Source: Spiribacter halobius
GTDB lineage: Bacteria; Pseudomonadota; Gammaproteobacteria; Nitrococcales; Nitrococcaceae
Assembly (NCBI RefSeq): GCF_020883455.1
Contig: NZ_CP086615.1
Coordinates: forward strand, 3,526,501-3,590,500
DNA: 64,000 nt
Reading direction: 5' to 3'
Shown: piece by piece, positions 15,769 to 25,948 of the stretch
Numbering within the stretch: position 1 is the stretch's first letter
Layout: every line of letters begins with the position of its first letter
Program-made: the position numbers and the translations under genes
Notes under the pieces: generated by a model
The model's input: the letters and a program-made list of their open reading frames with translations, nothing else
The model's database searches: none
What the model was told of the DNA's origin: nothing

Positions 15769-18174
15769 TCAGGCGTCGACCGACGCCGCCGCGGGTGCCC
15801 GCAGCAAGCGGGCCAGCGCCTCATCGGCGGCCGCCGGGGCCGCCACGCGGAGTGAACGGCTCATCACCCAGTCCGCAAGGCGTTCCACCGCGGCGGCAGT
15901 CGGCCGATCGCCCGCGGCCGTCACGCAGCCCGGAAGCAGCGCGGCCAGCACCGCGCCCGGATCCGCAGCGGTGGCCTCGGCCGCCGCCTCGTCCACCAGC
16001 ATGAGCTCGCGCACGCTGCCAGTGACCAGTGCGCCGGCGTCCGCGGCCAGAAGCTGCCCGCCCTCGGCTCGGCCCCACTCGTGCCAGTAGGCGCCCGCCG
16101 GCAACACGCCGCCGTCATCCAGCGGCCGCCGCAGAGGCAGGCCGAGCCCGGACACGATTCCCTGCTCCGGCGCCCAGCGCACGCCCCGCCCGGCCGGCGC
16201 GGACCGCACCGAGGCGAGCCCGTCGGCGAGACCGTGGCGCGCCCCCAGCACCATCACCGCCGCCGGGTCGTCGTCCCGCCGCATCGGCAATGCCATCAGC
16301 ACGGCGTCCAGCAGCAGCTCGTCGGGCGCCGCAGCGGCGCGGGCCAGGAGCAGCCGGCACAGCTGCGGCACCACGGTCGCCAGGGTCAGCCCCTCGGCGA
16401 CCGCGGCACCGTTCTCGGATACGGTGTAGCCGGTGCGCGTTTCGGCAAGGCGCAGGTGGACATCCGCCCCAGGCGCGGCGCCGACGATGCGCCCGCCCAG
16501 CGCCTGCCGCAGGCGCGGCAGTACCGGCGCCGGGACCTCCTGCAGCAGGATGCGCCGCTCACCAACCTGCACGCCGGCATCCGCCGGCGGCGCTGCGGGG
16601 TACGCAGTGTCTGGCGCGGTCTCCACAGGCGCTGTGTCGCCGGTTCTCTGCCACAGCAGCCCCGAGGCGGCCCAGTCGGCGAGCGCGGTCCATACCTGTT
16701 CACGCGCTGCCCAGGGCGCACGCTCGCCGGCGTGGGTACCCGTGGCCTGCGCCAGCTCCCGGGCCACCGTGTCCGGGTCCTTCCCGGCGGTGGCCTGCAG
16801 CCAGATCCAGGCGGCGGTGGCGTTGGGGCGGTAGAGGGTGCCCGTGCCCTCGCCGTAGAGCGACAGCGAGCGCTCCGTGACCACCTCCGCGACCCCGCGC
16901 GGGGTCACCTGCGGTCGCGCCACGGGGCCCCCGGCTCGGGCATCCGCCAGCGCCACGTCGGCGAGACGCGGCAGCGGGAAGCAGGGCAGATAGCGTGCCG
17001 CATTCCCGGCCGGATAGAGGCGCTGGAAATCCCCGGCCCGGGCGAGCTCGGTCTCGTCCCGACGGCGCAGCTCCGCCTCCGGATCGGTGGCCTCCGCCAG
17101 TGGCGGCAACGGCGGCCCGGGGTCGTTCAGCCCGAGCATGGCCACGAGATCCGCCACCATCTGGCGCTTGGTGCGGGTCTCGTAGATGCCGCCGTCCTCC
17201 GGGGCGGCGCAGATGTCCAGGGACGGGCTGAGGTTGCACTCCATCAGCCAGGGGTTCAGGTCCTGGTCGATCAGGCAGTCGAGCCCCAGCAGCTCGTAGC
17301 AGCCGCGGGTATCGGCACGCACGCGCCGGCAGCGCCGGCGCATGGCCTCGCGCGCGGCGATGGCCGTGAGCGTGACCAGATCGTGCAGGCGCTCGAACAG
17401 GGCGGCGTCGTCATGACCCTCCGCCCTCAGGCGGGCGCGGTAGTCGGCCAGCGGGAGGAAGCGCACCGGCGACGGCGAGGCGACATTACGGGCGTTGACG
17501 TCGGGATTGGTCAGATGGGCGAAGACGTTGCCGATGTTCTCCGGCTCGTAGGGCTCGGAGGCGAGCTTGGCGGAGCCTTCGCGATAGAGGTACAGGCGCA
17601 GCGGCTCCACCGAGGTGATGAGGGCGTACAGGCGCAGCGCGTACTTGCAGCCCTCCAGGGTGTGCGGGTTGCCCACATACTCCTGCACCATCCAGCGCTC
17701 GCCGGTGGGCACCCGGGCGACGTCGTCGAGCACGCGGATGTCCCTGCCCCGGGCGGCGTTCTTCGGCTTCAGGATCCAGCGCTGGTCCGGCCGCCGGGCG
17801 GCCTCATGCTGCAGGGCATGGTAGTCGCCGGGCATGGCAAAGGTCCGCGGGAAAAACGCGAGCCGGCCGGCCCGCTCGCCGGCGATACCACCCTGCCCCT
17901 CCCAGCGCTCGCGGGCCTCCCGCAGCGTGCGGTAGAGCAGGCTCTTGACGGTGAGCGCGTTGTTGCCGGGAATGTGGTTGACGGTCTTGCCCGGGGCGAG
18001 CTGCTCGAATACCTCCGGGGCAGGCATGCCGGTGTACCAGCAGGCGTCCCACGCCTGCGCATCGCCGGCCTCCCAGAGCGCCGGGTCCAGAGCCTCGACA
18101 AAGAACCGGTCCTGCGACTCCTCGCGCTTGCCGGCAAGCCAGTACCGCCGCTTGCCCGTCTCGCTGGCGCCCAT
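15769..18174 (-). CDS. Fusion protein: tubulin-tyrosine-ligase ATP-grasp, PqqD-like and HPr-kinase-like regions
   Basis: An 801-residue protein with three parts. Residues 1-350 form a TTL-type ATP-grasp ligase: WILKPKNAARGRDI, WMVQEYVGNPHTLEGCKYALR, a LYLYREG...ASEPY segment, AHLTNPD, and ELLGLDCLIDQDLNPWLMEC with NLSPSL. Residues 430-510 look like PqqD, the leader-peptide-binding fold of RiPP enzymes (GTLYRPNATAAWIW...ASGLL). Residues 535-775 resemble RiPP-associated HprK-like kinases, but the expected P-loop is degenerate (VMVLGARHGLADGLA). GGGAGGAG precedes the ATG. It is divergent from the operon of two Glu-rich peptides. TTL enzymes join amino acids to Glu/Asp-rich tails, so these peptides are the natural substrate candidates. 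The TTL part is firm; the other two are inferred. Confidence 0.85.
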   Translation of the reverse strand: MGASETGKRRYWLAGKREESQDRFFVEALDPALWEAGDAQAWDACWYTGMPAPEVFEQLAPGKTVNHIPGNNALTVKSLLYRTLREARERWEGQGGIAGERAGRLAFFPRTFAMPGDYHALQHEAARRPDQRWILKPKNAARGRDIRVLDDVARVPTGERWMVQEYVGNPHTLEGCKYALRLYALITSVEPLRLYLYREGSAKLASEPYEPENIGNVFAHLTNPDVNARNVASPSPVRFLPLADYRARLRAEGHDDAALFERLHDLVTLTAIAAREAMRRRCRRVRADTRGCYELLGLDCLIDQDLNPWLMECNLSPSLDICAAPEDGGIYETRTKRQMVADLVAMLGLNDPGPPLPPLAEATDPEAELRRRDETELARAGDFQRLYPAGNAARYLPCFPLPRLADVALADARAGGPVARPQVTPRGVAEVVTERSLSLYGEGTGTLYRPNATAAWIWLQATAGKDPDTVARELAQATGTHAGERAPWAAREQVWTALADWAASGLLWQRTGDTAPVETAPDTAYPAAPPADAGVQVGERRILLQEVPAPVLPRLRQALGGRIVGAAPGADVHLRLAETRTGYTVSENGAAVAEGLTLATVVPQLCRLLLARAAAAPDELLLDAVLMALPMRRDDDPAAVMVLGARHGLADGLASVRSAPAGRGVRWAPEQGIVSGLGLPLRRPLDDGGVLPAGAYWHEWGRAEGGQLLAADAGALVTGSVRELMLVDEAAAEATAADPGAVLAALLPGCVTAAGDRPTAAAVERLADWVMSRSLRVAAPAAADEALARLLRAPAAASVDA

Positions 18175-18375
18175 GGCATCTCCTCCCGCCGGCGTCGTCG
18201 ATCACGGCACGGGGCATCCCCGCACCGAGGCGATGTCGCCAGTCTCCCCAACATGGCGGCGGCGGGGAAGTACGTTGATCTACGAATGGGTAGCAGCGCA
18301 GCGAACCGCCAGACTCCCCATGGTGCCGTCGTACGGAAGGCACCGTGCCAGCCAGGCAACGCAATAGGAGGCACC

Positions 18376-18642
18376 ATGCGCGATACCACAGAGACCCGGG
18401 AGCAGCTGCTGCGCCGGCTGTCCCGCGGCCTGCTACTTTCCACGCCGCTGCTGCTGGCGGCAGCCAGCCTGCCCGCAGGCGCCGGCGTGACCACCGCACC
18501 GGCCGCACAGCCGGAGCAGGCCGACAGCATCCTGCTGGTAGCCCAGGCCGAGGGAGAGGCCGAAGGCGAGGCCGAGGGAGAGGCCGAAGGTGAGGGCGAA
18601 GGAGAGGCCGAGGGCGAAGCCGAGGCTGAAGCCGAAGGCTGA
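18376..18642 (+). CDS. Small peptide with leader and (Glu-Gly/Ala) tail, candidate modified precursor 1
   Basis: An 88-residue product. Residues 1-10 are polar, residues 11-28 hold the shared motif LLxxLSRxLxxxTPLLxA, and a hydrophobic stretch runs to about residue 38. Residues 59-88 are fifteen strict dipeptides of Glu followed by Gly or Ala. There is no Cys and no Trp. AGGAGG sits five bases before the ATG. The hydrophobic stretch could act as a signal peptide or membrane anchor, placing the tail outside the cytoplasm. The tail resembles the acidic C-terminal tails of tubulin, the targets of eukaryotic TTL-family ligases. First gene of a four-gene operon; role as substrate is inference. Confidence 0.82.
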   Translation: MRDTTETREQLLRRLSRGLLLSTPLLLAAASLPAGAGVTTAPAAQPEQADSILLVAQAEGEAEGEAEGEAEGEGEGEAEGEAEAEAEG

Positions 18643-18650
18643 GCCCGCAT

Positions 18651-18682
18651 CCGCCTCCGGCGTCTGCCAGGCGCCGGGGCGG
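18651..18682 (+). terminator. GC-rich hairpin after the first peptide gene (possible attenuator)
   Basis: CCGCCTCCGGCG pairs with CGCCGGGGCGG across nine bases, with one bulge. TCTTAATG follows. It could lower readthrough so that the peptide is made in excess over the genes behind it. Confidence 0.45.
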
Positions 18683-18710
18683 TCTTAATGCTGTGAAGGG
18701 AGATCGCCGC

Positions 18711-19223
18711 ATGGACCGATCCATCGATGCGCTTGCCGCACAGAATGTCCATCTGCTGGGGCAGCTGGAGCAGCTGCTGGGCACCCTGCCGGTCGCCGTC
18801 TACCGCTCGCGTCCGGCCCGGCACGGCAGCACCATCGGCGCCCAGACCCGGCACGTGCTGGACCACTACGACCGGCTGCTGGCGCGCGACAGCGATGCCG
18901 TGGACTATGCCAGCCGCGAGCGCGATGGCCGCACGGAGACCGATCCGGAGCGCGCGGCCACGCGCGTGGCCCGCATCCGGCAGGGGCTGCGCGACCTCCG
19001 CAACGAAAATCAGGCGCTGCGAATCCGTGACAGCGCCGCGACCCCGGAGGAGGGTCTGGCATCCTCCCTGGCACGGGAGCTCGCCTTCCTTGCCAGCCAT
19101 ACGGTGCATCATCTGGCGCTGATCGCGCTGCTCGCGGAATGGCAGGGGGAGCCACCGCCCGAGCATTTCGGTGTGGCGCCGAGCACCCTGGAACACCGGC
19201 AGGGCCAGAGCATCGGCGCCTGA
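18711..19223 (+). CDS. DinB/YfiT-like four-helix protein
   Basis: A 170-residue protein of the DinB superfamily. The usual metal-binding histidines are visible as His48 (TRHVLDHYDRL) and a pair near 130-134 (SHTVHHLALIALL). Members include metal-dependent thiol transferases, but most have no known reaction. The ATG at 18711 is chosen for GGGAG before it. It lies 68 bases after the first peptide gene and 36 before the DoxX gene on the same strand, so it is probably part of the peptide operon. Its role there is unknown. Confidence 0.82.
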   Translation: MDRSIDALAAQNVHLLGQLEQLLGTLPVAVYRSRPARHGSTIGAQTRHVLDHYDRLLARDSDAVDYASRERDGRTETDPERAATRVARIRQGLRDLRNENQALRIRDSAATPEEGLASSLARELAFLASHTVHHLALIALLAEWQGEPPPEHFGVAPSTLEHRQGQSIGA

Positions 19224-19259
19224 GCCCGGCCACTGGAAACCGCAGGCAGGAGGCAGAAC

Positions 19260-19679
19260 ATGGGCGTACCGCTGACCACCGGCGACCCGACCCTGGATCG
19301 CTATGGCCGGCACAGCCACTGGTTGCTGCGCGTGGCCATCACCGCAACCTTCCTCTACCAGGGCATCGACAAGTTTCTCGGCACCGGAATCACCGGCTTC
19401 GCGTCGGTCATGGGGCTGCCGGTGCTGATCGCGACCCTGGTGGCGCTGGCGGAGATCGGCGCCGGGCTGCTGGTGATCCTCGGCGCCTTCCTCGGCGGCT
19501 GGATCACCCGCCTCGGGGCCGCCATGGCGGTTCCCGTGCTGCTCGGCGCAATCTTCATGGAACACTGGGGCCAGTGGCATTTCATGGCCACGGCCACGCA
19601 TCCCCTCGGCGGCATGCAGTTTCAGGTGACCCTGCTGCTGCTGGCACTCTATCTGATGATCCGCGGCAACGAGGTCTGA
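19260..19679 (+). CDS. DoxX-like integral membrane protein
   Basis: A 139-residue inner-membrane protein with four predicted helices (for example LLRVAITATFLYQGIDKF, LIATLVALAEIGAGLLVILG, AAMAVPVLLGAIF and VTLLLLALYLMI). The FLYQGIDKF stretch after helix 1 is typical of DoxX. AGGAGG precedes the ATG. It lies between the DinB gene and the second peptide gene. Some DoxX proteins work in membrane redox chemistry; nothing in the sequence says what this one does. Confidence 0.85.
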   Translation: MGVPLTTGDPTLDRYGRHSHWLLRVAITATFLYQGIDKFLGTGITGFASVMGLPVLIATLVALAEIGAGLLVILGAFLGGWITRLGAAMAVPVLLGAIFMEHWGQWHFMATATHPLGGMQFQVTLLLLALYLMIRGNEV

Positions 19680-19711
19680 GGCCATTGGTGCCGTAGCGGA
19701 GGCAACCCGCG

Positions 19712-20101
19712 ATGAGCGAACAGGACAAACAGCGACAGAAGCTTCTGAGCACCCTGTCCCGCAGCCTGGTCTACACCACCCCCCTTCTGGTGGCGGTCAC
19801 CGGCGCCGCCGGCCTGCACGCAATCATCTCCGACGCCACCACCCAGGAGGGCTACTACATGCTCGCCACGGCCGAGGCGAGCGGCGAGGCTGAGGCCGGC
19901 GGGGAGGCCGAGGCCGCCGGGGAAGCCGAGGGCGAGGCTGCCGGGGAAGCCGCTGGAGAAGCGGAGTCTGCCGGAGAGGCGGAAGCCACCGGCGAGGCCG
20001 AGGCTGCCGGTGAAGCGGAGGCAGCCGGGGAAGCCGAAGCCGCCGGCGAAGCTGAGGCAGCGGGTGAAGCAGAGGCCGCCGGTGAGGCGGAGGCCCAGTA
20101 A
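19712..20101 (+). CDS. Small peptide with leader and GEAEAA-repeat tail, candidate modified precursor 2
   Basis: A 129-residue product. Its leader aligns without gaps to that of the peptide at 18376: positions 11, 12, 15, 16, 17, 19, 23, 24, 25, 26 and 28 are identical (LL, LSR, L, TPLL, A). After a hydrophobic segment and a short MLATAEASGEAE junction (compare LLVAQAEGEAE in the other), the tail from about residue 58 to the end is built from GEAEAA-like hexads, the last five exact. GGAGG precedes the ATG. It is the last gene of the operon and is followed by a large inverted repeat that may end transcription. No family is recognised. Confidence 0.82.
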   Translation: MSEQDKQRQKLLSTLSRSLVYTTPLLVAVTGAAGLHAIISDATTQEGYYMLATAEASGEAEAGGEAEAAGEAEGEAAGEAAGEAESAGEAEATGEAEAAGEAEAAGEAEAAGEAEAAGEAEAAGEAEAQ

Positions 20102-20124: not shown

Positions 20125-20236
20125 GGCCGAGGGAACGTGTCTGCCTGGCGGGACACGCTGTGAATACATCCCTGTGCGCTCCAAGGCGGCATCCATGCCG
20201 CCTAGGGTCCCGCCAGGCAGACACGTTCCCTCGGCC
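20125..20236. repeat. Constant-core element with private arms, copy 1
   Basis: Outer arms of about 30 bases (starting GGCCGAGGGAACGTG) are perfectly complementary to each other but unlike the arms of other copies. The core has GGGACACGCTGTGAATACATC and an inner AGGCGGCAT/ATGCCGCCT hairpin. It follows the second peptide gene. Confidence 0.85.
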
Positions 20237-20550: not shown

Positions 20551-21912
20551 TCACACACGCAGCAGAAGATATTCCCGCTCCCAGGAGCTGATCACCCGGA
20601 AATAGGCGTCGTGCTCCGCGCGCTTGACCGCGAGATAGACGCGGGTGAAGCGCTCGCCGAGGACGTCCGCCAGGGCGTCGCAGGCCTCCAGGGCATCCAG
20701 GGCGCGGCCGAGCTCCGAGGGGAGATTGTGGCCGTGCTTGTAGGCGGAGCCCTGCAGCGGCGGGCGTGGCTCCAGCTGCTGGAGCATGCCCAGATAGCCG
20801 CAGGCCAGCGTCGCCGCCATGGCCAGATACGGGTTGGCATCCGCGCCGGCGAGGCGGTTCTCCACCCGGGTCGCCTCCGGATCGCCGTGGGGCACCCGCA
20901 GGCCCACCGTGCGGTTGTCGAAGCCCCACTCCGTATTGATCGGGGCTGCCAGGTTGCCGCTGCCCGGCGCGAGCCGGCGGTAGGAATTGATGTTCGGGGC
21001 AAGAAACGCCAGCGCCGCCGGGAGATAGCGCTGCAGGCCGCCCAGATAGTGCATGAACAGCCGACCCGGCCGCCCGCCCTCCTGGAACAGGTTCTCGCCG
21101 GTCTCCAGGCTCTCGAGGCTCTGGTGCAGATGCAGCGAGCTGCCCGGCTCGTTCTCCATCGGCTTGGCCATGAAGGTGGCGTACATGTCCGCGCGGAAGG
21201 CCACCTCGCGCAGCGTGCGCTTGAAGTAGAACACCGTATCCGCCAGGGCCAGCGGGTCACCGTGGCGGAAGTTGATCTCCATCTGCCCCGAGCCTTCCTC
21301 GTGGGTCAGTGTGTCGATCTCCAGCTGCTGGGCCTGGCACCACTCGTACATGCGCTCGAACAGCGGATCGAACTCGTTCACCGCATCGATGCTGTAGGAC
21401 TGGTGCGCCACCTCCTGGCGCCCCGAGCGGCCCACCGGCGGCTCCAGCGGGTAGTCCGGATCCCGGTTCTTCTTGACCAGATAGAACTCCACCTCCGGCG
21501 CCACCACCGGCCGCCAGCCGCGCTCGGCGTAGAGCGCCAGCACCCGGCGCAGCACCTGGCGCGGGGCCAGGTCCACCGGCTCGCCGTCGAGGTAGTGGCA
21601 GTGATGGATCACCTGCGCGGTGGGCTCGACGGCCCAGGGCACCACCCGCAGGGTGTCCATGTCCGGGGCCAGGGCCATGTCGCGCTCGATGGGGTTCCAG
21701 ATGCGCTCGTCGTCCTCGGGGTAGTCCCCGGTGGCGGTCTGGATGAAGATCGAGTCCGGCAGCCGCGGCTGGCCGCGCCCCAGATACTTGCGCGCGGGCA
21801 TGATCTTGCCCTTGGCCGCGCCGGTCATGTCCGGGACCAGGCATTCCACCTCGACGATGCCGCGCTCCTCGAACCAGCGCCTTAGCTCGGATTCTCTGTC
21901 GTCGTCGCTCAT
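20551..21912 (-). CDS. puuA: Gamma-glutamylpolyamine synthetase (glutamine synthetase family), copy 1
   Basis: A 453-residue glutamine-synthetase-fold ligase that joins glutamate to putrescine or a related amine. It has APEVEFYLV, EEGSGQMEINF, the AKPMENEPGSSLHLHQS segment, APNINSYRRLAPG and NRTVGLRVPHGDPEATRVENRLAGADANPYL, all typical of the PuuA/GlnA3 branch. GAGGTGAT precedes the ATG. It is the last gene of a minus-strand run puuB-potA-potB-potC-potF-puuA. A second synthetase of only moderate likeness is at 32587-33957, so the two probably prefer different amines. Confidence 0.92.
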   Translation of the reverse strand: MSDDDRESELRRWFEERGIVEVECLVPDMTGAAKGKIMPARKYLGRGQPRLPDSIFIQTATGDYPEDDERIWNPIERDMALAPDMDTLRVVPWAVEPTAQVIHHCHYLDGEPVDLAPRQVLRRVLALYAERGWRPVVAPEVEFYLVKKNRDPDYPLEPPVGRSGRQEVAHQSYSIDAVNEFDPLFERMYEWCQAQQLEIDTLTHEEGSGQMEINFRHGDPLALADTVFYFKRTLREVAFRADMYATFMAKPMENEPGSSLHLHQSLESLETGENLFQEGGRPGRLFMHYLGGLQRYLPAALAFLAPNINSYRRLAPGSGNLAAPINTEWGFDNRTVGLRVPHGDPEATRVENRLAGADANPYLAMAATLACGYLGMLQQLEPRPPLQGSAYKHGHNLPSELGRALDALEACDALADVLGERFTRVYLAVKRAEHDAYFRVISSWEREYLLLRV

Positions 21913-22005
21913 GATCGATGATCACCTCGCCGGCCCCGCCGCAGCGGGGCCGGCCTAACCGACTGCCTCAGCGCTCCGCGGCTGCGGCCGCGGACCGGGC
22001 GCGAC

Positions 22006-23079
22006 TCAGCGCGAGAGCACCTCGGACCAGATCTGCTGGAAGACCCGCAGATCCTCCCCCTGCAGGATCGGGATGAACTCGAGCCGGGCCATCTCCTCCT
22101 CGGTGGGCGTGGACGGCGGCTCCTGCAGCAGCGGCTCCAGCATGGGCAGCGCCGCCCGGTTGGGCGAGCTGTAGTAGGTCCAGTTCGACAGCTGGGCACC
22201 GATCTCGGCATCCAGGATGTAGTTGATGAAGGTGTGCGCGAGCTCCGGGTTGGGCGCCTCCGAGGGGATCACCATATTGTCCACCCAGATCTCCGCGCCC
22301 TCCTCGGGGATGATGTAGGACGTGTTGGCGTAGGCCTCCGGATCCTCGCTGCGGTAGTAGACGTAGTCGCCGTTGTAGGTCATGCCGGCGTGGATGACGC
22401 CGCGGGCGATCTGCTGCAGCTGCGGGGTGCCGTCCTCGAAGCCGGAGAAGTTGTCCCGCCGCTTGGTCTCCAGCAGCAGCCGCGCGGCCTCGGTCCACTG
22501 CTCACGGTCGGTGCAGCGGTAGCCGTGGCCGAGGTAGGCGCAGGCGGAGGCCACGGTCGGATTGCCCTCGCCGCCCATCAGCGCGAACGGCTGGTTCGGG
22601 TTGAGCTCGGGATCGAACAGGATCGACCAGCTCTCCGGGGCGTCCGGGATGGTGTCCGTGCGGTAGACGATGCCGGTGGTGCCCCACTGGTAGGCCGCCG
22701 AGTACTCGTTGCCCGGGTCGTAGCTCGGGTCCCGGAACTTCGGCGACAGATTGTCCATGTTGGGGATCTGCGAATGGTCCAGCGGCTGGATCAGGCCGCT
22801 GTCGACGAGCCGGGGGATGAAGTAGTTCGACGGCATCACCACGTCGTACTGGCTGGCGCCGCCGGCCTGCATCTTGGAGAACATCTCGGCGTTGGAGTTG
22901 AAGAAGTTCTCCACCACGTCGACGTCATACTCGGCCTCGAACTGCTCGATGATCTCCGGATCCATGTACTGGGACCAGTTGAAGATATAGAGCTTGCGTT
23001 CCTCGTCCTGGGCCACGGCGGTTCCGGCGGCGAGCAGGGCCGAGATGGCGGCGGCGACGGTTACGCTTGGGTATCGCAT
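22006..23079 (-). CDS. potF: Periplasmic polyamine-binding protein of an ABC importer
   Basis: A 357-residue solute-binding protein with a signal peptide (RYPSVTVAAAISALLAAGTA, cleaved near AVAQ) and the PotD/PotF fold: LYIFNWSQYMDPEIIEQFE at the start of the mature part, YDVVMPSNYFIPRL, and WGTTGIVYR. It captures putrescine or spermidine in the periplasm; which one cannot be told. GAGGAG precedes the ATG at 23079. It lies 32 bases after potC. Confidence 0.93.
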   Translation of the reverse strand: MRYPSVTVAAAISALLAAGTAVAQDEERKLYIFNWSQYMDPEIIEQFEAEYDVDVVENFFNSNAEMFSKMQAGGASQYDVVMPSNYFIPRLVDSGLIQPLDHSQIPNMDNLSPKFRDPSYDPGNEYSAAYQWGTTGIVYRTDTIPDAPESWSILFDPELNPNQPFALMGGEGNPTVASACAYLGHGYRCTDREQWTEAARLLLETKRRDNFSGFEDGTPQLQQIARGVIHAGMTYNGDYVYYRSEDPEAYANTSYIIPEEGAEIWVDNMVIPSEAPNPELAHTFINYILDAEIGAQLSNWTYYSSPNRAALPMLEPLLQEPPSTPTEEEMARLEFIPILQGEDLRVFQQIWSEVLSR

Positions 23080-23111
23080 CGGGCAGGTCTCCTCATGGGG
23101 CGTTGCGGGAG

Positions 23112-23918
23112 TCATCGGGAAGAACCGGGTTTCACGCGCTGGGCGGCGAGCACCATGAGCGCAGCGGCGAATACCGCCAGGATCATGAGCGTGGAGACGG
23201 CGTTGATCTCCGGGGTCACGCCCTTCTTGATGGCGCTCCAGATGAAGATCGGCAGCGTCGCGCTCTCCGGGCCGGCGGTGAAGAAGCTGATCACGAAGTC
23301 GTCGATGGACAGGGTGAAGGCGAGGAAGAACCCCGCCACCAGCGCCGGACGCACGGTGGGCAGGATGAAATACCAGGCCCGTTGCGCGGGCGAGGCGTAG
23401 AGGTCCTGCACCGCCTCGAACAGGCTGGCATCGAGCCCCACCAGGCGCGAGTAGACCAGCAGCGCCACGAACGGGATCTGGAAGGTGACGTGGGCGATGA
23501 TCATCGTGCCGAGGCCGGGGCCGAACAGGCCGATGAAGTCGTTCACCGTCACGAAGAACGTCATCTCGGAGATGCCGAAGACGATGTCCGGCATCACGAT
23601 CGGCAGATACACCAGCCAGATCAGCCAGCCGAGCTTCAGATGGCGGTGGCGGTACATGCCGTAACCCAGCACCGCGCCCAGCGCCGTGGCGATGAGCGAG
23701 GAGGTCACCGCCAGCACAAGGCTGTTCCAGGCCGCGCTGGTGATCTGCTCGTTGCCGAACAGCCGCCCGTACCAGCGCAGCGAGAAGCCGGCGAAGGAGG
23801 CCGAGCTGTTCGCCGAGTTGAAGGAGAAGAACACCACCACGGCGAGCGGGGCGTACAGGAAGACCAGCACCGCGTACCAGAACCCCCGCAGGCCCCGCTG
23901 CAGCCGCCCGCGCCTCAC
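23112..23918 (-). CDS. potC: Polyamine ABC transporter permease, PotC/PotI type
   Basis: A 268-residue inner-membrane permease with six predicted helices. The EAA-type loop contacting the ATPase is visible as EAVQDLYASPAQRAWYFILP. The start is a GTG at 23918 that overlaps the stop of potB by four bases (GTGA), with AGGAGGTG upstream. It pairs with PotB to form the channel. Confidence 0.93.
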   Translation of the reverse strand: MRRGRLQRGLRGFWYAVLVFLYAPLAVVVFFSFNSANSSASFAGFSLRWYGRLFGNEQITSAAWNSLVLAVTSSLIATALGAVLGYGMYRHRHLKLGWLIWLVYLPIVMPDIVFGISEMTFFVTVNDFIGLFGPGLGTMIIAHVTFQIPFVALLVYSRLVGLDASLFEAVQDLYASPAQRAWYFILPTVRPALVAGFFLAFTLSIDDFVISFFTAGPESATLPIFIWSAIKKGVTPEINAVSTLMILAVFAAALMVLAAQRVKPGSSR

Positions 23919-24808
23919 AGCACCACCTCCTCGCCGCCGCCGAGCCGCCGGCCGAGACGGCGGAGCACCTGCAGGCCGATGAGCGTGGCCGCGATCATCA
24001 GCAGCGCTCCCGCCGCCCCCAGCGGCCAGTTGGAGCCGCCGGAGAACTGCCTCGCCACCAGGTTGCCCAGCATGTAGGAGTTGCCGCCGCCGAGGAGCTC
24101 GGGAATGACGTACATGCCGAAGGCCGGGATCGACACCAGCACCACCCCGGCCATGAGCCCGGGCAGGGTCTGGGGCAGCACCGCATGGCGGAAGACGTCC
24201 ACCGGCCGCGCGTAGAGGTCGCTGGCGGCCTCCACCTGGGCATGGTCCAGCTTCTCGAAGGCGGCGTAGAGCGGCAGCACCATGAACGGCAGGAAGTTGT
24301 ACACAAGCCCCAGCACCACCGCGAAGCGCGAGGGGAACAGCCCGAGCTCCGGGGCAACGAAGCCGAGGAATGCCGCCGCATCCGCCAGCGGGGTATCCGG
24401 CGCCAGCAGATTCATCCAGCCGAAGGTGCGGATCACCTGGTTGGTCCAGGACGGCACCACCACCAGCAGCAGCAGGATGGGGCGGCGCTCCGGCGGGAAG
24501 GTGGTGATGAAGTAGGCGATCGGATAGGCGATCACCGTCACCAGCGCCGTCGCCAGCACCGTCTGCCAGAGCGAGCGCAGCAGGGTGTAGAGATTCCCCG
24601 GGCTCCAGCCGAGGAAGCCGAAGCCGGCGAGCTCCCGGAACGCCTCGAGGCTCGGCGGCGGTGTCGGCAGGCCGTAGGGCCCGGCCGACAGGAAGGCGAT
24701 GGTCACGAGATAGATGCTCGGCAGCACCAGAAAGAAGCCGATCCACGCCGCCGCCGGGGCCACGGTGAGCAGCAGCGCGCGCGGTGGCAGTCGGGAGCCC
24801 GCGGCCAT
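23915..24808 (-). CDS. potB: Polyamine ABC transporter permease, PotB/PotH type
   Basis: A 297-residue inner-membrane permease with six predicted helices. The EAA loop is EAASDLYARPVDVFRHAVLP. It starts three bases after the potA stop and overlaps potC, so the subunits are translationally coupled. Confidence 0.93.
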   Translation of the reverse strand: MAAGSRLPPRALLLTVAPAAAWIGFFLVLPSIYLVTIAFLSAGPYGLPTPPPSLEAFRELAGFGFLGWSPGNLYTLLRSLWQTVLATALVTVIAYPIAYFITTFPPERRPILLLLVVVPSWTNQVIRTFGWMNLLAPDTPLADAAAFLGFVAPELGLFPSRFAVVLGLVYNFLPFMVLPLYAAFEKLDHAQVEAASDLYARPVDVFRHAVLPQTLPGLMAGVVLVSIPAFGMYVIPELLGGGNSYMLGNLVARQFSGGSNWPLGAAGALLMIAATLIGLQVLRRLGRRLGGGEEVVL

Positions 24809-24811
24809 GGG

Positions 24812-25948
24812 CTAGCCCTCGCCCCCGTCCTGGCCGAGCAGCCGGACGTCGCTGCTGGCCACACCCAGCGTCACCCGCTCACCGACGCCGTAGAGCCCCT
24901 GGCCCCGGTTGTGGCGGATCAGGGTCACCCGCTCGCCGTCGCAGTCCACCTGGTACTCGGCCACGCTGCCGCGGTAGAGGCGCTCCACCACCTCGCCGGC
25001 GAAGCGGTTCTCCGCGCCCTCCGCGGCGGGGCCGATATCCAGCGTCTCAGGGCGCAGCAGCGCGTGCCGGCCCTCGCCGGCCACCGGCGCGGCCAGGGTG
25101 ACGAAGGGCAGCGCCACGCCGCCATCGCTGCGCCGCTCCGCGGGAAACAGGTTGCTGTGGCCCATGAAGCGGGCGACGAAGAGATTCGCCGGCTGCTCGT
25201 AGACGGCCTGGGGCGAGCCTACCTGCTGCACGCGCCCGGCCTGCAGCACGGCCAGGCGGTCGCTCATGACCATCGCCTCCTGCTGATCGTGGGTCACGAA
25301 GACGAAGGTCATGCCCACACGGCGCTGCAGGCGCAGCAGCTCCACCTGCAACTCGCCGCGCAGCCCGGCGTCCAGCGCCGAGAGGGGCTCGTCCAGCAGC
25401 AGCACGTCGGGCTCGTTGATCAGCGCCCGGGCCAGGGCCACGCGCTGGCTCTGGCCGCCGGAGAGCTGGCCGACGCGCCGGCCGAGCAGCTCGCGGATGC
25501 GGATCAGCTCGGCGATCTCCGTCACCCGGCGCTCCCGCTCCGCCCGCGGCTGCCCCCGCATGCGCAGGCCGAAGCCGATGTTCTCGGCGACATCGAGATG
25601 CGGGAACAGGGCGTAGGACTGGAACACGGTGTTGACGCTGCGCCGGTGAGGCGGAATGTCGGTCACCGGTGCGCCGCCAACACTGACGGTACCGGCGTCG
25701 GCATGCTCGAGGCCGGCGAGGATGCGCAGGAGCGTGGTCTTGCCGCAACCTGAGGGGCCGAGCAGGGTGAAGAACTCGCCGGCCTCGATGGCGAGGTCGA
25801 CCCCGTCCAGCGCCACGGCGTCCGCCCCGAACTGCTTGCGCAGCCCCTCGAGGCGAATGCTGGAGGCCGCGCGCCGGGCCGTACGTGCCGGTTCCGCGGT
25901 GGCCTCGTCGACGGTCCGCGCCGCGACCTCTTGCGTCTCCGCTCTCAT
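24812..25948 (-). CDS. potA: Polyamine ABC transporter ATP-binding protein
   Basis: A 378-residue ATPase with Walker A GPSGCGKTT, Q-loop TVFQSYALFPHLDVAENI, signature LSGGQSQRVALARA, Walker B VLLLDEPLSALD and H-loop VTHDQ, then a C-terminal TOBE domain (LRPETLDI...). The first 30 residues are an extra polar segment compared with E. coli PotA. It powers uptake through PotB/PotC. Confidence 0.94.
   Translation of the reverse strand: MRAETQEVAARTVDEATAEPARTARRAASSIRLEGLRKQFGADAVALDGVDLAIEAGEFFTLLGPSGCGKTTLLRILAGLEHADAGTVSVGGAPVTDIPPHRRSVNTVFQSYALFPHLDVAENIGFGLRMRGQPRAERERRVTEIAELIRIRELLGRRVGQLSGGQSQRVALARALINEPDVLLLDEPLSALDAGLRGELQVELLRLQRRVGMTFVFVTHDQQEAMVMSDRLAVLQAGRVQQVGSPQAVYEQPANLFVARFMGHSNLFPAERRSDGGVALPFVTLAAPVAGEGRHALLRPETLDIGPAAEGAENRFAGEVVERLYRGSVAEYQVDCDGERVTLIRHNRGQGLYGVGERVTLGVASSDVRLLGQDGGEG

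Follow-up and report, generated by a model that had tools for sequence, protein, structure and literature searches.

What substrate would an enzyme of the tubulin tyrosine ligase (TTL) family act on in a halophilic bacterium, and what would it attach? The question is raised by a locus at positions 15769-20101 of a 64,000-nucleotide stretch of the Spiribacter halobius genome (contig NZ_CP086615.1, positions 3,526,501 to 3,590,500; hereafter the window, meaning the whole stretch), in which a minus-strand gene for an 801-residue TTL fusion protein is divergent from a four-gene operon encoding peptide 1, a DinB protein, a DoxX protein and peptide 2 (Table 1). An earlier examination of the letters alone, here called the sequence-only reading, had placed the fusion opposite an operon with small genes for tailed peptides at its start and end, and all of these parts were found where it had put them; the peptide genes do stand first and last, with the correction that two non-peptide genes, DinB and DoxX, lie between them. 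Its description of two peptides with one leader and alternating Glu-Gly/Ala tails is likewise borne out by alignments and tail statistics.

Coupling of the fusion enzyme to a conserved leader and a Glu-x tail

The fusion enzyme is coupled, genome-wide, to proteins that share a single conserved leader and bear tails in which Glu strictly alternates with another residue (Glu-x). Ninety non-redundant loci were selected on the presence of the enzyme only: a scan of ca. 85,000 species supplied 80, and relatives and the window the rest, less duplicates. A leader-tail gene lies within the examined stretch around the enzyme in 83 of them (median distance of the nearest, 47.5 bp), and for six of the other seven (L021, L030-L033 and L091) it is found elsewhere in the genome; enzyme homologues regularly lacking a peptide gene, which the sequence-only reading had named as the pattern that would tell against it, are thus not what is observed. 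The pairing occurs in Nitrococcales-type halophiles, Halomonas, Marinobacter and marine alphaproteobacteria. In the order, 54 genomes were compared: enzyme and leader are both present in 17 and both absent from 35, two have the leader alone (both incomplete, at 84-86%) and none the enzyme alone. The Fisher p of 3.6e-12 is only indicative, as the genomes are related and so cannot count as independent. Full-length enzyme and strong leader matches coincide in the same 4 genomes of a class sample (369 genomes) and in the same 3 of a phylum sample (398 genomes). Furthermore, the coupling persists where the genes are far apart (genomes G010, G015, G019 and G021), and the leader profile finds no match in Gammaproteobacteria whose TTL proteins lack the PqqD fusion. 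Weak leader matches in G256 (L166, a peptidase-like open reading frame) and G756 were taken as chance.

Peptides 1 and 2 align over the leader pattern RxxLLxxLSRxLxYxxPL, and the motif R..L...L[SAG][RKQ]...P is present in 123 of 126 distinct leader proteins. Their 126 tails are composed largely of Glu (37%), Ala (26%) and Gly (21%), in an order far from that expected from composition: adjacent Glu pairs number 24 against an expected 824, and E-x-E triplets 1633 against 806. In the two peptides of the window, the Glu codons are mixed (8/6 and 16/9) and Gly and Ala each use several codons; it is therefore the protein pattern that is kept, not a DNA repeat, and DNA slippage as the origin of the repeats was rejected on account of this scrambling. 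A Kyte-Doolittle hydrophobic stretch above 1.6 is found in 104 of the 126 leader proteins, and an AxA-like site likewise in 104.

Of the 126 leader proteins, 34 run on past the tail into a further domain, with a CxxCH motif after the tail in all 34. In the representatives tested, these domains are SoxA/TsdA-type cytochromes c by Pfam, and in L224 a P460-like cytochrome, below the Pfam cut-off, follows the tail. Heme is attached to CxxCH motifs in the periplasm. Because the CxxCH motifs follow the tail, the leader most likely works as a Sec signal as well, so that the tails would end outside the cytoplasm.

Domain structure of the fusion enzyme

Family profiles, structure prediction and fold comparison together confirm the three-domain composition read from the sequence. 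An AlphaFold2 model of the whole fusion protein, built from 76 homologues, reached a pLDDT of 91.5 and a pTM of 0.89. The TTL profile of Pfam matches residues 63-327 (E 2.5e-54), a sequence search of the PDB ranks the tubulin polyglutamylase TTLL6 first, and residues 6-399 of the model superimpose on TTLL6 (6vzq_D) with a Z score of 40.9 and a root-mean-square deviation (rmsd) of 2.6 over 371 residues, the match to TTL itself being weaker (Z ~31). Residues K136, R181, K203, T222-N223, D299, E312 and N314 are invariant across the 76 homologues, and those among them assigned to ATP/Mg and substrate binding (K136, R181, K203, D299, E312 and N314) align with their TTLL6 counterparts, in keeping with the full set of TTL motifs reported by the sequence-only reading. 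Both the TTL-type ATP-grasp fold and the conserved ATP/Mg and substrate residues of the TTL/TTLL family (PF03133) are thus present, and by alignment and model the fusion enzyme is a TTLL-type ligase with intact catalytic residues and a predicted amino-acid ligation activity. At the three positions changed in the engineered TTLL6 of 6vzq (wild-type C, Q, H to A, R, I), the bacterial family has S/A, R/K and L and is nearer to the engineered enzyme than to the wild type, which may hint at a branch-initiating enzyme ('initiase'); the hint is weak because TTLL7 fits neither residue set.

The PqqD-like region likewise proved real, with a Pfam PqqD match at residues 440-507 (E 8.9e-6). Residues 421-509, which were also modeled alone for the comparison, have the strand-strand-strand-helix-helix-helix order of a recognition element of ribosomally synthesized and post-translationally modified peptides (RiPPs) and match a lasso peptide B1 protein crystallized with its leader (6jx3_B; Z 12.8, rmsd 1.5 over 84 residues). 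On the strength of the model, this segment is a PqqD-like RiPP recognition element (RRE), which would bind the leader. With 126 distinct proteins that combine a conserved leader and a variable tail as ribosomal precursors, and an RRE in the enzyme, two defining features of a RiPP system are found.

The C-terminal third of the protein has no Pfam match of its own. Its last ~280 residues are predicted to adopt a PEPCK/HprK-type fold (PEPCK, Z 13.9, rmsd 4.2 over 257 residues), and it is homologous to PqqD+HprK proteins of other bacteria that score on the NCBIfam model HprK_rel_A. An HprK crystal structure was not among the fold matches listed, which did include PEPCK relatives, and this absence is not counted as evidence. 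No P-loop (Walker A motif) is present in any of the TTL-fused proteins compared. Because the motif is lost in these members and kept in two relatives (L165 and L168), the HprK-like part is, judged by its sequence, a pseudo-kinase domain. The HprK-like assignment of the sequence-only reading therefore stands as regards fold and homology and fails as regards an intact kinase; the kinase role at which it hinted is unsupported, and HprK kinase activity of the fusion was rejected. In small genomes tentatively labeled Spiribacter-like, the HprK part of the fusion is missing altogether.

Some variants of this arrangement were observed in passing. The small Spiribacter-like genomes with a TTL-PqqD protein that lacks the HprK part (L034, L035 and L146-L151) have leaders that carry PEAT/PEAM repeats, not Glu-Gly. 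The genome of the window encodes a second HprK-like protein (L212 5182-6480) with an intact P-loop (GPPGSGKST). In one further genome the parts are unfused, as a TTL-like protein without the TNPD motif (L167 6744-7859) and a PqqD-HprK protein with an intact P-loop (L168 1562-2821).

Relatives with another catalytic domain

In genome G292, a 2-oxoglutarate-Fe(II) prolyl-hydroxylase-like domain occupies the place of TTL in a fusion with PqqD and an HprK-like domain, and the peptide beside it has a recognizable leader (VDDARRELLGRLGRFAAYTPPAML) followed by a Pro-rich tail. Because the hydroxylase that replaces TTL adjoins a leader with a Pro-rich tail, catalytic domain and tail residue appear to change together, which we regard as a lead and not as proof. 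A second contig of the same genome encodes a glycosyltransferase (GT2) fused to PqqD-HprK, adjoining a gene of an N-acetylglucosamine (GlcNAc) transferase family (PF11397), and these genes possibly serve the glycosylation of hydroxyproline tails.

Proposed mechanism and alternatives

Sequence, model and analogy point to a RiPP-like tail-modification system, in which amino acids, most likely glutamate, would be ligated onto the tail glutamates under guidance of the leader and before export; we put the probability of this reading at roughly 0.7. The RRE would bind the RxxLLxxLSRxLxYxxPL leader, which also resembles the n- and h-region of a Sec signal peptide, and the tail would be fed to the ligase, where ATP would activate the gamma-carboxyls of the tail glutamates and an amino acid, most likely glutamate, would be joined to them, mostly in the form of short side branches. 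Export of the modified peptide, or of the tail-bearing cytochrome, would follow, and once in the periplasm the resulting hyper-acidic brush might bind cations or serve as a docking site for redox partners, in the company of DinB, DoxX, rhodanese and c-type cytochromes. The HprK pseudo-domain is probably a scaffold or substrate clamp. The nearest precedent, by virtue of the Glu-Gly repeats and a separate recruiting domain, is found in eukaryotes, where TTLL5 adds glutamate to such repeats in a non-tubulin protein, RPGR(ORF15), to which it is recruited through a separate binding domain (PMC13052805). In contrast, recruitment in the bacterial system would rely on an RRE and an N-terminal leader and the substrates would be exported; RPGR and the peptides are unrelated in sequence.

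Four other explanations were weighed. The peptides might be extended at the C-terminal carboxylate (the mode of TTL on tubulin and of TTLL11 on Dishevelled) rather than on Glu side chains: TTL acts on a C-terminus, TTLL11 is able to start chains at a C-terminal carboxyl (PMC11574253), and many of the peptides end in the tail. However, the Glu side chains are favored because 34 proteins carry the tail internally, ahead of a cytochrome, and C-terminal ligation is disfavored further by C-terminal residues that vary widely (G, Y, N, A, E, S, Q, R and T); a long repeat would, moreover, serve no purpose, and this explanation is improbable. On a par with it stands the ligation of an amine other than an amino acid (a polyamine, aminosugar or lipid amine) to the tail glutamates, by which the peptides would be neutralized or anchored. 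Its donor site is unpredictable, and glutamine-synthetase-like and ABC-transporter-like genes adjoin the operon in the window, but such neighbors are not among the conserved clusters examined across the 90 loci, and known TTLL enzymes use Glu, Gly or Tyr.

A shade less credible is a graspetide-like chemistry, in which the ATP-grasp domain would form lactam or lactone cross-links from tail Glu to Lys, Ser or Thr. Graspetides do resemble the present system in that an ATP-grasp enzyme acts on acidic residues of a ribosomal peptide, and Lys occurs in Marinobacter and alphaproteobacterial tails; cross-linking is disfavored, however, because tails without acceptors exist (29 of 126 lack Lys, Ser and Thr altogether, and 73 lack Lys), while the domain belongs to the TTL branch (PF03133), a different ATP-grasp family that goes unmentioned in a survey of graspetides (PMC8939145). 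Just as doubtful is the idea that the tails are acidic linkers left unmodified, the target of the enzyme lying elsewhere in the leader proteins or outside them. In its favor, modification of the tail is a prediction and halophile proteins often contain acidic repeats. Against it, genomes without the enzyme also lack the leader, save two incomplete genomes and weak matches; TTLL enzymes act on Glu-rich tails; and in the hydroxylase relative the tail composition shifts along with the catalytic domain.

Several observations weigh against leader-guided glutamate ligation onto the tails. The donor is not readable from the sequence and could be glycine, another amino acid or another amine, and the 'initiase' hint is too weak to help. 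The tails of the Spiribacter-like genomes are PEAT repeats, and the lysines of the alphaproteobacterial and Marinobacter tails leave room for cross-links. The genome of L085 has the enzyme with no leader gene detected, the sole such case of the 90 loci. The hydroxylase relative comes from one genome, with a weak leader score (E 2.1e-4) on a contig that ends near the leader gene, and the periplasmic role is a guess from guilt by association. The association in question is with the genes that recur across loci, namely DinB, DoxX, rhodanese, AhpD-like, sigma-factor-like and zinc-finger (zf-HC2) proteins and c-type cytochromes: the cluster that holds DinB, merged with the tailed cytochromes, is found in 74 of the 90 loci and a DoxX gene in 15, and on account of these conserved neighbors we would guess at a function in periplasmic redox or metal stress.

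A wider and more tentative reading, to which we give somewhat less than even odds, is that of a bacterial 'tail code', in which one leader family would recruit interchangeable enzymes on an RRE-HprK chassis (TTL ligase, prolyl hydroxylase or glycosyltransferase), and the low-complexity tail would in each case be built from the residue that the enzyme modifies. Within this code, which would be a bacterial counterpart to the tubulin code, the TTL branch would write polyglutamate or polyglycine branches on cytochromes and small proteins that are exported.

Relation to known systems

The closest solved structures are those of the tubulin polyglutamylases TTLL6 and TTLL7, which share the fold, the catalytic residues and acidic tail substrates with the bacterial fusion; the latter, in contrast, has no microtubule-binding part and no tubulin to act on, and carries an RRE and an HprK pseudo-domain. 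The order of PqqD followed by an HprK-type domain recurs in the HPr-rel-A systems (TIGR04352, HprK-related kinase A; TIGR04353, PqqD), and there is direct sequence homology to PqqD+HprK fusions, but the fusion of the window has lost the P-loop, gained a TTL domain and acquired Glu-tail precursors; neither TIGR04352 nor TIGR04353 matches it, and with the intact kinase P-loop also missing it falls outside HPr-rel-A. Bufferins and oxazolins, which are RiPPs of multinuclear non-heme iron-dependent oxidative enzymes (MNIOs), resemble the present system in an RRE-containing partner and nearby DoxX and sigma factor genes, and perhaps in their Sec-style signal-peptide precursors (PMC12452194); for bufferins, preliminary results are reported to the effect that the sequence recognized includes the signal peptide (PMC12452194). 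The window operon, in contrast, has no MNIO (DUF692) gene, its genes being the TTL fusion, DinB, DoxX and the peptides; the chemistry differs, and the Cys motifs of bufferins are missing, with Cys in only 6 of 92 tailed peptides. Bacterial glutamate ligation by an ATP-grasp enzyme is also known from the RimK polyglutamylation of ribosomal protein S6 (mentioned in PMC4431377), which differs in its ATP-grasp family, its C-terminal target and its lack of both leader and RRE.

No NCBIfam model covers the fusion enzyme or the peptides, and a literature search, which did not extend to the literature on the TTLL6 structure and the 2009 ATP-grasp survey and leaves room for an earlier passing mention, found no paper that joins bacterial TTL, PqqD and such peptides; the statement of the sequence-only reading that no named bacterial system has this make-up is upheld to that extent. 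There is a real chance that the system, whose chassis is a relative of the HPr-rel-A and RiPP systems, merits a separate class. The branched glutamylation and glycylation carried out by TTL-family enzymes have so far been treated as a specialty of the eukaryotic cytoskeleton. If the proposed ligation is correct, these reactions could be studied in a simple genetic and biochemical model, a widespread bacterial one in which leader, enzyme and substrates are all defined. Leader-guided peptide modification would gain a new class, branched acidic polymers might be made programmable by this route, and the bacterial ancestry of TTL enzymes would become easier to trace. A further prediction would be that periplasmic cytochromes of culturable bacteria, Halomonas and Marinobacter among them, bear a modification that has so far gone unrecognized.

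Features of the locus and its surroundings

Table 1. Positions of the features in the window and in related loci (L numbers).
Feature	Position	Strand	Evidence
TTL-RRE(PqqD)-HprK pseudo-domain fusion ligase, 801 residues	15769..18174	-	Pfam TTL and PqqD; AlphaFold2 model
TTLL-type ATP-grasp ligase domain (predicted), residues ~6-399	16978..18159	-	TTLL6 fold match; invariant catalytic residues
RRE (PqqD-like, predicted), residues ~421-509	16648..16914	-	fold match to 6jx3_B; strand/helix order
HprK/PEPCK-fold pseudo-domain (predicted), P-loop lost, residues ~525-801	15772..16602	-	PEPCK fold; homology to PqqD+HprK_rel_A proteins; no Walker A
Candidate substrate peptide 1 (pep1), 88 residues	18376..18642	+	common leader; genome-wide leader-profile match; codon scrambling
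Peptide 1 leader, residues 1-58			
Peptide 1 conserved leader motif REQLLRRLSRGLLLSTPL	18397..18450	+	leader alignments
Peptide 1 EAEG tail, residues 59-88	18550-18639	+	
DinB-superfamily protein, conserved partner gene	18711..19223	+	Pfam DinB_2, E 5e-10
DoxX-family membrane protein, partner gene	19260..19679	+	Pfam DoxX, E 4.2e-10
Candidate substrate peptide 2 (pep2), 129 residues	19712..20101	+	common leader; leader profile E 1.6e-22; repeats
Peptide 2 leader, residues 1-54			
Peptide 2 GEAEAA tail	19874-20098	+	
Leader and Glu repeats before SoxA/TsdA-type cytochrome c	L022 11816-12514	-	
Leader and Glu repeats before SoxA/TsdA-type cytochrome c	L052 15345-16031	+	
Leader and Glu repeats before SoxA/TsdA-type cytochrome c	L208 1472-2197	+	
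Leader and Glu repeats before P460-like cytochrome	L224 1354-2415	+	
Prolyl-4-hydroxylase-like-PqqD-HprK fusion	L164 2717-4672	-	
Leader peptide with Pro-rich tail	L164 4546-4785	-	
GlcNAc-transferase-family gene (PF11397)	L177 3-779	+	
GT2-PqqD-HprK fusion	L177 701-2653	+	

A scan of the locus for promoters and terminators found nothing, and comparison with PLSDB gave no match that would indicate plasmid carriage. Further downstream, at 20551-25948 on the minus strand of the window, a glutamine-synthetase-like gene is followed by genes for what looks like a polyamine-type ATP-binding cassette (ABC) transporter; these probably form a polyamine catabolic operon, and conservation with the ligase was not seen. 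Just 3' of peptide 2 (20125-20236), a perfect 30-bp inverted repeat with its arms 52 bp apart belongs to a palindromic family resembling repetitive extragenic palindromes and bacterial interspersed mosaic elements (REP/BIME-like), with at least 43 matches in the S. halobius genome.

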